This document shows positions 452 through 4,394 of a DNA stretch of 5,664 bases, in pieces. Every line of letters begins with the position of its first letter. Positions within the stretch are counted from its first letter, which is position 1. Source of the DNA: Deltaproteobacteria bacterium RBG_13_61_14 (GTDB lineage: Bacteria; RBG-13-61-14); assembly GCA_001797815.1 (NCBI GenBank), contig MGQK01000009.1:4498-10161 (forward strand), in the 5' to 3' direction. Both the position numbers and the translations under genes were made by a program. The notes under the pieces were generated by a model. The model was not told where the DNA came from. It did not search any database and saw only the letters and a program-made list of their open reading frames with translations.

Positions 452-1345
452 TTACGGTTTTCTCACTCGCAATCCCGCCTTGATGAAGACTTCCGACTTT
501 GCCTGCAATTCTTTCTCGGACATCGAGGGGATGCCCAGGGGTTTCAGTTCGCTATTCAGCTTTTCGAGCTTGCTCTCGCCCAGGCGGTGATAAGGCAGGA
601 GCACGATTTCGGTCTCGCCCAATTCAATCAGGAATTTTGCAATCCGTTTCAGCTCGTCTTCCGAATCATTTAAGCCCGGGATCACCGGCATGCGGAGGTG
701 GCGGGGTATGCCCTTGGCGATGATCCGCCGCAGATTCTCCAGAATTACAAGGTTGCTCTGGCCGGTCAGTTTCCGGTGCAGGTCTTCGCTCAGCGCCTTG
801 AGATCGAAAAGCACAAGGTCTGTCTGCTTAAGGACCGGCTGGAGCGATTCCCAATTGAAATGGCCGCAGGTCTCGACCGCGAGGTGCAGATTTTCATGCT
901 TGATCAGCGGCACCAGTTCCTGGAGAAAGTCCGGTCGCGCCAGCGGCTCGCCGCCGCTCAGGGTGACGCCGCCCTCCGGCTCGTAAAACTCCCGGTCTTT
1001 GACCAGTTCTTTCACCAGCGCTGCCGGCGAAAATTCCCGGGCCGCCGGCTCCAGGGCCCGGGCCGGGCAGGCCTCGGTGCAGACAAAACAGGCGTCGCAT
1101 TTCTCCCAATTGATGTGCGGACCGTGATCGTGGCGGATCGCCTGGATGGGGCAGGCTTTGGCGCACTCGCCGCAGGCGATGCAGCGTTCCGAGGAGAAGA
1201 TCAGCTCGTTCTCGAAGCGGAGGGCTTCCGGGTTCTGGCACCAGCGGCAGCGGAGCGGACAGCCTTTGCAAAAGACCGTGGTCCGGATCCCGGGACCGTC
1301 ATGGACGGAAAAGCGCTGGATATCGCAGACTAAGGCAGGGGGCAT
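452..1345 (-). CDS. Glycyl radical enzyme activating enzyme (radical SAM, two ferredoxin-type clusters)
   Basis: Installs the glycyl radical on its partner GRE by reductive cleavage of S-adenosylmethionine; cytoplasmic and oxygen-sensitive. I chose the ATG at 1345 (297 aa). A TTG at 1369 would add 8 residues, but it lies inside a heptamer repeat and family similarity begins after the ATG (C-D-I-Q-R-F-S-V-H-D-G-P-G). Neither start has a strong ribosome binding site. Visible motifs: radical-SAM CxxxCxxC at residues 29, 33 and 36, with W35 in the usual C-x-W-C context; an inserted pair of CxxCxxCxxxC clusters at 55-65 and 83-93; the SAM-binding GGEP at 131-134; E-T-C-G at 158-161; D-L-K at 181-183; R-M-P-V-I-P-G-L-N-D at 218-227; and L-L-P-Y-H at 249-253. 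The ferredoxin insert is typical of activases for non-PFL GREs and is absent from classical PflA. It is the last gene of the minus-strand cluster, and its natural target is the GRE at 1947-4394. Family assignment is firm; no substrate-specific name is justified. Confidence 0.95.
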   Translation of the reverse strand: MPPALVCDIQRFSVHDGPGIRTTVFCKGCPLRCRWCQNPEALRFENELIFSSERCIACGECAKACPIQAIRHDHGPHINWEKCDACFVCTEACPARALEPAAREFSPAALVKELVKDREFYEPEGGVTLSGGEPLARPDFLQELVPLIKHENLHLAVETCGHFNWESLQPVLKQTDLVLFDLKALSEDLHRKLTGQSNLVILENLRRIIAKGIPRHLRMPVIPGLNDSEDELKRIAKFLIELGETEIVLLPYHRLGESKLEKLNSELKPLGIPSMSEKELQAKSEVFIKAGLRVRKP

Positions 1346-1362
1346 GAATTTTATCCGGTAAT

Positions 1363-1432
1363 GTGTCAAGTGTCAGGTGTCACGTGTCAAGTGAAAATAT
1401 GACCTGACACTTGCCGCTTGCCACCTGACACG
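1363..1432. repeat. Inverted heptamer repeat array (GTGTCAN units and their complement)
   Basis: Four contiguous 7-bp units GTGTCAN run from 1363 to 1390, with the last base varying (A, G, C, A). After a short spacer (GTGAAAATA), units of the opposite orientation follow from about 1400 to 1432: TGACACT, TGCCGCT, TGCCACC and TGACACG, also on a 7-bp step. The two halves can pair. Bases 1367-1378 are a perfect 12-bp complement of 1402-1413 with a 23-base loop, and 1370-1379 can alternatively pair with 1422-1431. The array fills most of the gap between the SCP2-like gene and the activase. On the minus strand no T-run follows the stem, so it does not look like an intrinsic terminator. Confidence 0.85.
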
Positions 1433-1445
1433 GCAACGACCAGGC

Positions 1446-1892
1446 TCAAGCGTTGTTTACCGCACCCTTGGGTTGACGCCGCCGGCTCGTGAAGTATCGC
1501 TCCAAGAGGCTCATGATAAACCCGAATTGGTAGACGTAATAGAGGTTTCCGGTCTGACCGATCTTATTGCCGATCAAGATTTCCAGCAACTGGTCGGGCC
1601 GGGAGCTGAACCCCAGGGCGTCGGGCTGGTGCAAGGTAAAGGTGAAATGAACTTCTTCCGGCTTCTGTTTCCGTGCGAACACTCTGCCGCCGGCGAACAC
1701 CAGGTGCCGGGCATACTCGCCGTCACCGCTCTCAAAACGGTAGGTCCCCTGGTATTCCCGGATCGCCCGCCCCAGCATGGCGTCCCGTTTGGATGCCCAC
1801 CTCAGGACCGAGGCCAGGACTTTGAGGCCGAGGCCGATGGCCCCCCAGCGCAGTTTTTCTTTCAACGAATCGCCGGAGACACTCTGTTGCAT
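1446..1892 (-). CDS. Small SCP2-like protein encoded between GRE and its activase
   Basis: 148 aa with an ATG start and TGA stop, on the same strand as the GRE and activase and lying between them (54 bases after the GRE, 100 before the activase ATG). No clear Shine-Dalgarno site precedes the ATG, so translation may rely on coupling or the start may be misplaced. Residues about 15-34 form a hydrophobic or amphipathic helix (W-G-A-I-G-L-G-L-K-V-L). The core, about 50-130, alternates strands and ends in a pattern that recalls SCP2 sterol-carrier domains: G-G-R-V-F-A-R, then V-H-F-T-F-T-L, then D-Q-L-L-E-I-L-type helix, then G-N-K-I-G-Q-T-G-N-L-Y-Y. A basic tail (S-R-R-R-Q-P-K-G) follows. SCP2 domains bind lipids and other hydrophobic ligands; that this one does is inference from sequence pattern only. 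It has no cysteine, so it is not an Fe-S small subunit like those of benzylsuccinate synthase or hydroxyphenylacetate decarboxylase. An overlapping plus-strand frame exists but fits neither context nor composition. Confidence 0.75.
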   Translation of the reverse strand: MQQSVSGDSLKEKLRWGAIGLGLKVLASVLRWASKRDAMLGRAIREYQGTYRFESGDGEYARHLVFAGGRVFARKQKPEEVHFTFTLHQPDALGFSSRPDQLLEILIGNKIGQTGNLYYVYQFGFIMSLLERYFTSRRRQPKGAVNNA

Positions 1893-1930: not shown

Positions 1931-1951
1931 GCCTAACGCCTAATGCCTAAA
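1931..1951. repeat. Heptamer tandem repeat GCCTAAN x3
   Basis: Three exact 7-bp steps, GCCTAAC, GCCTAAT and GCCTAAA, with only the seventh base changing. The repeat overlaps the GRE stop codon (TAG on the minus strand, 1949-1947) and fills the start of the gap before the SCP2-like gene. It has the same six-fixed-plus-one-variable design as the 1363-1432 array but a different core, and no inverted half is seen here. Confidence 0.75.
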
Positions 1952-4394
1952 TAATATCCTCGGTCCGGTTAATGATTTCCTGCTGCATGGCCGGGTTGAG
2001 GTCGCCGAAATAAGCGGTGTAGCCGCTGACCCGGACCAGGAGGTCCTTGGCCTTCTCCGGGTCGTTCATGGCCTCGATCAGCATTTCCTTGTCCGCGATC
2101 ACGAACTGGAGCTGCATGCCCCGCTTGCGGAAATAGCCCCGGACCAGTTGTTCCATGACCTCCATCTTTCCCGGCTCCTGGAGCAGGCTGGCCGGAATCT
2201 TGTGGTTGTTGGCAATGCAGTTGGCCAGAGGCCCGGGCGGCAGCTTGGCGGTGGAGCTCAGGGAAGCGCTCGGCCCCTGGCGCGCGGCCCCGCTGACCGG
2301 AGTAGCGCCGCTGGCCAGGGCCTGGCCCTTTCTCCGGCCGTTGGGCAGGGCGCCCACGATGCGGCCGTAGCCGGTGTGGAAGGTAATACTCCAATAGCCC
2401 ACGCAATACGGCCCGCCGCGGTAATTGGGGCGGCGGTTGAAATTCCGGTCAATTTCTTCGACCAGGCGGACGGCGATTTCGTCGGCCCCGGGATCGTCAT
2501 TGCCGTATTGGGGAGCCCGATGGAGGCACATGGCCCGCACCTGGTCATAACCCACAAAATCAGCCTTGAGCGCGGCCTCCATCTCCGCCGGGCTCACCCG
2601 CTTCTCCTCAAAGACCAGCTTCTTCAGCGCGGCCAGCGAGTCCACCACGTCGGCCAGGCCCACCACCCAGACCCCGCTGGAGTTGTAGCGGGCGCCGCCG
2701 CTGGTCAAATCCTTGCCTGTTTCCATCGGGCCTTCGATCAGCGCGCTCAGGAGCGGAATCGGGTGCAACTCCTCATGAGCCTGATCATAAAGGATCTCCG
2801 CCTCCACGCTCGAGTCCACCATGAACTGAAGCTGCGCGTGAAAGGCCTCCAGGAACCGCGCGAAGGATTCCATCTCGCCGAGCTTGGGCGTCCTGGGTCC
2901 CACCTGCAATCCGGACAGGTGGTGCACTCCCCCGGCCAAGGTGAGTTCCAGCACCGCGGCCAGGTTGAGGAGGATGGAACCGGTCATGGGATAAGCTTTT
3001 CCCTGGACCGCGGTTTCCACGCATCCGATCACCCCATAATCCCGCGCGTCTTCCAGGCTGACGCCCTTGGCCGTGAGCGCCGGGACGATGGCCTCGTCGT
3101 TGTAAAGCGCGGGCGCGGCGCCGGTAGAGCGGACGACTTCGAGGACCCGTTGGTACCATTCTTTGGGTGAATCCCGATGGAAGCGGGCGTCCACGTTGGG
3201 CTCGCGGAGCTTGAGCAAGTTGAGGGCCTGGACCATGAGGTAGCTTAAGTCGTTGGTGGCGTCGCGGCCCCGGCCATCCATCCCGCTCAGGGTAATGGAC
3301 TGATTGGTGCCCGAGCCGCTGAACAGCGCCTCCCCCGCGGCCGGCACCAGCGGGGTATGGTCGTTGCTCTTGACGTAAAAGGCCATGACCAGTTCCAGCG
3401 CCTTCCCCGGGTCCAGCCGGCCCGCCTCCAGGTCGCGCCGGTAAAAAGGCCACAGGTATTGGTCCATGCGGCCAAAGCTCATGGCCAGGTCGGAATTCTC
3501 CATCATCACCGCCACGTGGGTGATCCACAGTGACTGCAAGGCTTCCCAGAAGGTTTCCGCGGGTTCGGCCGGGACCCGTTCGAGGATGCGGCCCAACTCG
3601 GCGAGCTCCGCCTTGCGCTCGGGGTCTTTTTCCCGGTCCGCCAGTTCCCGGCATTTCGCGGCATAGTTCCGGGCGAAGGCGATCACGCCCTCACTGACTG
3701 TAACCACGGCTTGATAAAATTCCTGTCTGGTATCCGCTTCCGGGCCGGCGCTGGAAACTTCCTGGGCTTTTTGCCGCGCCAGCTCCAGGATCCGGTTGAA
3801 GCCGAATTGGATGGCCGCCGGATAGTTGGGAACCAGGTGGGAGACGCCGTTGGGTAAAGCGATCAAATAAAAAACCATCCGCTCCATGAGCTTGATCGAG
3901 TCGGCGTACCCGAACCGCTTTTTCGCCCACTCGTGAATGTTCTTGTCCCGGAAATAGGGAAAGATACGGAAGCTGTATTCTTCGATCGCCTCCCGGCTGA
4001 CCCCCACCGGGTGCCGTTTCCGAAGGGGCAGCTTCACCAGTTCCGGCCAGATCAGCGAAGCCTGGAACTCCGGATACATCATGCAGCCCAAGCGGTGCTC
4101 GGTGGCCGAGCCGACGATCAACTCCTCCGGGAAAACCACCGGCTGCAGGTGAGCGAGGACGTAGCGCAGCGATTCCGCCTGCCGGCGAAGCGGCCGTTCG
4201 GCGTTGAAGCCGTTCTTCTCGAAATAGTCGGTCAGCAGCTTCGAGCGCTCCAGGGCCACCGCGGGTTGCGCCTGGAGCACGGCCTCCCGCAGGCGGGCGA
4301 TGCGGGGAAAGTTTTCCAGGGTGGCCGAAAAAATCTCGTCCCGCCGGCTCGTTTCCGAAGCCGCGGGCTTGATTCCTGCAATCGCCGTGGACAT
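1947..4394 (-). CDS. Glycyl radical enzyme, PFL-like superfamily, substrate unassigned
   Basis: 815 aa, within the usual size range of the family. The first ~700 residues are the PFL-like barrel domain and the last ~100 the glycine radical domain. The active-site motif is G-C-V-E-T with Cys458 (thiyl radical) and Glu460 (likely acid/base). The radical loop is R-V-S-G-Y-T-A-Y-F with Gly791 as radical carrier, followed by the usual ~24-residue end, so the gene is complete. Other family signatures are Y-N-D-E at 431-434, G-G-A-R-Y-N at 566-571 and G-A-L-P-N-G-R at 681-687. A single active-site Cys, rather than the Cys-Cys of pyruvate formate-lyase, with Glu two residues on is the pattern of GRE dehydratases, C-N/C-S lyases and arylacetate decarboxylases. 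Most that I recall read G-C-V-E-P; here Thr replaces Pro. The N-terminal extension is short, and no microcompartment genes are in view. The start is supported by AAGGAG 8 bases upstream. It is first in the cluster, with the cognate activase downstream. Activity requires anaerobiosis. Superfamily is certain; substrate is not. Confidence 0.97.
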   Translation of the reverse strand: MSTAIAGIKPAASETSRRDEIFSATLENFPRIARLREAVLQAQPAVALERSKLLTDYFEKNGFNAERPLRRQAESLRYVLAHLQPVVFPEELIVGSATEHRLGCMMYPEFQASLIWPELVKLPLRKRHPVGVSREAIEEYSFRIFPYFRDKNIHEWAKKRFGYADSIKLMERMVFYLIALPNGVSHLVPNYPAAIQFGFNRILELARQKAQEVSSAGPEADTRQEFYQAVVTVSEGVIAFARNYAAKCRELADREKDPERKAELAELGRILERVPAEPAETFWEALQSLWITHVAVMMENSDLAMSFGRMDQYLWPFYRRDLEAGRLDPGKALELVMAFYVKSNDHTPLVPAAGEALFSGSGTNQSITLSGMDGRGRDATNDLSYLMVQALNLLKLREPNVDARFHRDSPKEWYQRVLEVVRSTGAAPALYNDEAIVPALTAKGVSLEDARDYGVIGCVETAVQGKAYPMTGSILLNLAAVLELTLAGGVHHLSGLQVGPRTPKLGEMESFARFLEAFHAQLQFMVDSSVEAEILYDQAHEELHPIPLLSALIEGPMETGKDLTSGGARYNSSGVWVVGLADVVDSLAALKKLVFEEKRVSPAEMEAALKADFVGYDQVRAMCLHRAPQYGNDDPGADEIAVRLVEEIDRNFNRRPNYRGGPYCVGYWSITFHTGYGRIVGALPNGRRKGQALASGATPVSGAARQGPSASLSSTAKLPPGPLANCIANNHKIPASLLQEPGKMEVMEQLVRGYFRKRGMQLQFVIADKEMLIEAMNDPEKAKDLLVRVSGYTAYFGDLNPAMQQEIINRTEDII

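Follow-up and report, generated by a model that had tools for sequence, protein, structure and literature searches.

The question raised by this locus is what role a small gene plays between a glycyl radical enzyme (GRE) and its activase. In the 5,664-nucleotide stretch of DNA that was analyzed (hereafter, the window), three genes are concerned:

452..1369, minus strand: GRE activase of 305 aa, a radical SAM protein with two extra 4Fe-4S motifs (TIGR02494, 321.7 bits against a cut-off of 174)
1446..1892 (stop included), minus strand: SCP2-like small protein of 148 aa (family profiles; homologs fused to or beside GREs of one clade)
1947..4394, minus strand: GRE of 815 aa, eliminase type (PFL-like and Gly_radical matches; Cys458-Val-Glu460, His186, Thr471, and Gly791)

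The minus-strand open reading frame (1446-1892) is intact and starts with ATG. Its product of 148 aa has zero cysteines, as an earlier note on this DNA had stated. Its G+C content by codon position (0.58/0.42/0.76) is like that of the neighboring genes, and the differences from the ortholog in a same-order relative (L001, about 51-54% identity) fall mostly on third positions (46/33/73 by codon position, over 131 codons). This composition and the third-position bias indicate that the reading frame is a true coding gene. Reading frames and domain matches agree with the arrangement described before, in which GRE, small gene, and activase follow each other on a single strand, with spacers of 54 nt and 76 nt between them. 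A helix at the N-terminus, previously called amphipathic, was predicted as well, at low confidence, but it is more hydrophobic than strictly amphipathic. The spacer between the small gene and the activase contains an inverted repeat (1370-1431) whose 24-nt arms match imperfectly (83%), as well as a direct repeat nearby. In two same-order relatives, a secreted transglutaminase-like gene, absent from the window, is located between the GRE and SCP2 genes (L001 6614-7942; L041 5511-6821).

The resemblance to sterol carrier protein 2 (SCP2) domains that had been seen by eye does not emerge from the window sequence alone. By itself, the 148-aa protein had no match in Pfam, NCBIfam, or PHROGs and a single chance-level match in the PDB, and a profile-profile comparison with SCP2 using only the two closest sequences gave no match either. 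Homologs were found in L001, in a second same-order genome, and, at approximately 25% identity, in distant genomes. From these, an alignment of 13 family members, stand-alone and fused, was built, and at this level the resemblance held. The Pfam SCP2 model (PF02036) matched 9 of the 13 members (best 4.5e-5), with 2 fused members passing its gathering score of 21.3 (24.2 and 21.9), and 2 members additionally matched Alkyl_sulf_C weakly. Against the PDB, the top matches of the family profile were sterol carrier protein 2 (E 0.0036), and UbiJ was matched weakly (E 0.31). Furthermore, hhalign aligned the family with classic SCP2 proteins at 93.6% probability (E 2e-7), with a score of 48.4, whereas 100 column-shuffled controls scored 17.3 at most (best probability 1.3%) and the reversed alignment 13.7. 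The stand-alone and the fused members, taken as separate subsets, reached 90% and 80%, respectively. Two AlphaFold models from shallow, two-sequence input were of low confidence (pLDDT 47.7 and 44.6), with an order of helices and strands compatible with SCP2. The small-protein family is therefore supported as SCP2-like by profile comparison, a membership that belongs to the family, since neither the window sequence nor the two closest sequences together gave a match. Four further proteins of about 280-310 aa (L022, L026, L027, and L028) with weak profile matches seemingly consist of two SCP2-like halves and have no GRE in frame.

SCP2-like folds are reused in enzymes, and the window sequence is strongly divergent, so that the fold might serve a use other than lipid binding, for example that of a structural subunit by which the GRE is shaped or closed, a role comparable to that of the small benzylsuccinate synthase subunits. 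We regard this as improbable: the protein has neither cysteines nor an Fe-S motif, and a hydrophobic ligand would fit the aliphatic active-site changes described below.

The SCP2-family profile was searched against 386 genomes, with matches below an E-value of 1e-11 regarded as strong. Fifteen strong matches were found, 14 of them fused to or beside a GRE and the fifteenth being a truncated second copy in G266. Eight of the 14 are N-terminal domains of GRE reading frames of about 990-1050 aa, and 6 are stand-alone neighboring genes. The reverse search of the same genomes, using a profile of the GRE clade to which these enzymes belong, returned 14 full-length members, all of which are accompanied by SCP2, and 1 further member (G045) that is cut off at the start of its contig; other GREs in those genomes are devoid of an SCP2 domain. 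Additional searches of phylum sets yielded 8 more fused GREs (G391-G394 and G399-G402) and 3 more GRE-SCP2-activase loci (a second copy in G391, G405, and G410). In G397, an in-frame stop splits the SCP2 domain from the GRE (L131 10575-13547), a break that may be genuine or due to an error in sequencing. Viral contigs contained no clade GRE. Counted from the sets of genomes searched phylum by phylum, the clade would span at least seven phylum-level groups. Adjacency or fusion to a single GRE clade thus recurs across phyla, and the functional link between small gene and GRE, which had been suggested from gene order in the window, is corroborated by this conserved association. No shared pathway, and no consistent lipid pathway, was found in the neighborhoods of the clade loci; an FGGY kinase, a metallophosphoesterase, a short-chain dehydrogenase, a FadR-like regulator, and a transglutaminase each recur in only one or two lineages. 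The FGGY carbohydrate kinase genes lie beside fused GREs in two families of one phylum (L035 6928-8235; L036 6844-8388).

Carrier, membrane tether, and activation helper had been put forward as roles of the small protein. That it assists activation, by docking the activase on the GRE or by shielding the glycyl radical, could be suspected because the SCP2 gene, where it stands alone, mostly lies between the genes of these two proteins. However, the activase of G059 lies about 2.5 kb away, other GREs with similar activases do without such a protein, and wherever SCP2 was seen fused, its fusion partner is the GRE and never the activase. Two genomes, G403 and G404, encode SCP2-activase pairs adjoining htpG with no GRE alongside (L126 8611-10006; L124 561-1968), and a clade GRE was not found in either at an E-value of 1e-100. 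While this retention would suit an activation helper and fits poorly with a carrier serving the GRE, the activase frame of G403 starts without its N-terminal radical-SAM motif, and the pairs may therefore be remnants. Taken together, we consider a role in activation rather unlikely. Since SCP2 is fused to the GRE, a carrier or a membrane tether is favored.

In a tree of 31 GREs, which included other GREs of the same genomes as well as glycerol dehydratase and CutC, all 14 SCP2-linked GREs form one clade (support 100/100). An extended quick tree (44 rows) likewise placed 22 SCP2-linked GREs and the truncated G045 together (SH-aLRT 99), with GREs lacking SCP2 (G173, G026, and G349) just outside. 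Clade membership was set by the tree and not by a gap in bit scores, because one member (G391:C292) scored below two GREs without SCP2. The fused forms are nested inside the SCP2-linked clade (support 100), for which a single fusion event would be the simplest reading. Furthermore, SCP2 and GRE identities are correlated (Mantel r 0.85, 0 of 2000 permutations; 0.72 at one row per lineage), as expected for partners, although shared ancestry alone also yields such a correlation. The window GRE itself remained below every NCBIfam equivalog cut-off, including those of the characterized CutC, HypD, HpsG/HpfG, PflD, HPAD, and IAD, with CutC scoring best (512.7 bits compared to 1050). Another GRE, in G037 (C78:7290-9755), lies in an open frame of 1117 aa and is extended at its N-terminus.

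Catalytic residues are retained throughout the clade. Cys458-Val-Glu460 and Gly791 are invariant, the radical motif RVSGYTAYF varies little, His is kept at the position that we take to be 164 of glycerol dehydratase, and Thr is kept at CutC 502 (Ser once). Other positions have changed: CutC Y506 corresponds to Leu/Met/Ile and CutC Y208 to aliphatic residues, while Leu/Val/Ala/Met/Thr and Gly/Ala/Asn/Ser occupy the positions of glycerol dehydratase H281 and D447, respectively (these numbers, like S282 and Y339 below, being presumably those of the enzyme). Aromatic packing on the substrate is common in GRE eliminases, without strictly defining them. The CxE motif and the usual substrate-packing aromatic residue have been described for this group (PMC8473560); the aromatic is absent here, as all 14 members have Asn/Asp (Val once) at the CutC F395 position. 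From these residues, the enzyme would be an eliminase whose pocket is less polar. The conserved Asn/Asp is itself polar, however, and counts against a hydrophobic substrate.

If the SCP2-like part were instead an anchor that holds the GRE, and possibly the activase, at a membrane or scaffold without handing over a substrate, the hydrophobic helical segments near the N- or C-terminus of members would be accounted for, and UbiJ offers a precedent, as it both binds lipid and organizes a multiprotein complex (PMC6747719). The hydropathy of members is mostly under transmembrane level, though, and an anchor leaves unexplained why active-site positions turned aliphatic specifically in this clade. We therefore judge this to be the less probable role, if a more plausible one than assistance in activation.

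We consider it probable that the SCP2-like protein is a dedicated lipid-carrier partner of this one clade of glycyl radical eliminases, presenting a hydrophobic substrate to the GRE. As such a carrier, it would have remained a separate protein in the lineage of the window and become the N-terminal domain of the GRE in the nested subclade. Its pocket, together with the hydrophobic N-terminal helix, would take up the substrate from membrane or cytosol and pass it to the GRE, in which the activase would have generated the Gly791 radical. Cys458 would then become a thiyl radical and abstract a hydrogen atom from a carbon that carries a hydroxyl group, while Glu460 and His186 would aid the 1,2-elimination of water or another leaving group, resulting in an aldehyde-type product. 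The clade GRE would accordingly be a dehydratase or lyase acting on a lipid-like hydroxyl compound. As to a more specific role, the chances are roughly even that the clade is a previously undescribed group, present in several anaerobic phyla that are uncultured, whose enzymes act by radical elimination on lipids of membranes or of storage, delivered by the SCP2-like carrier or domain. Examples of candidate substrates are glycerol ethers, monoglycerides, long-chain diols, and sphingoid-like bases.

Known GRE eliminases use small soluble molecules, such as glycerol, choline, hydroxyproline, and isethionate. An SCP2-like domain beside or fused to one branch of these oxygen-sensitive enzymes, as seen in several bacterial phyla that are uncultured, suggests a greasy, lipid-like substrate, unlike those of its known relatives, and thereby points to anaerobic radical chemistry on such compounds. 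In the openly accessible literature searched, no link between GREs and SCP2 was found, the sole co-mention being an unrelated fungal genomics paper. While GREs and SCP2 proteins are each known, their conserved pairing appears to be new, although the fused architecture may have been noticed before. The two form a defined pair that can be expressed and tested, and might account for one of the steps by which lipids are broken down or made anaerobically in phyla for which metagenomes are the main source of knowledge. Moreover, the pairing marks out a group of GREs that existing equivalog models do not assign.

Among other GRE systems, those of benzylsuccinate synthase and 4-hydroxyphenylacetate decarboxylase likewise include a gene for an additional small protein. 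Their small subunits are Fe-S/cysteine proteins, in contrast to the 148-aa protein, which has no cysteine to bind a cluster. With B12-independent glycerol dehydratase (1r8w) and CutC (5fay), the window system has in common the GRE fold, CxE, Thr, the glycyl Gly, and a similar activase; the conserved His is shared with glycerol dehydratase and replaced by Asp in CutC. However, the window GRE matches 1r8w at only about 500 bits, differs from the two enzymes at H281, S282, Y339, and D447 and at F395 and Y506, respectively, and unlike them has an SCP2-like partner. Such partners are known from elsewhere: UbiJ and UbiT, which take part in ubiquinone synthesis, are SCP2 proteins and bring hydrophobic intermediates to the enzymes of the pathway, and a natural ubiT-ubiU fusion exists (PMC6747719). 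Here too, an SCP2-domain accessory protein accompanies an enzyme system and occurs fused, with a GRE in place of the U32-type hydroxylase that is the partner there. The type III alkylsulfatases SdsA1 and SdsAP, whose substrates are amphipathic, likewise have an SCP2-like domain fused to an enzyme (PMC5426288), in this case C-terminal to a metallo-beta-lactamase enzyme, whereas the domain is N-terminal in the clade GREs. By analogy, UbiJ/UbiT and the alkylsulfatases may serve as the nearest working models for the SCP2-GRE pair.
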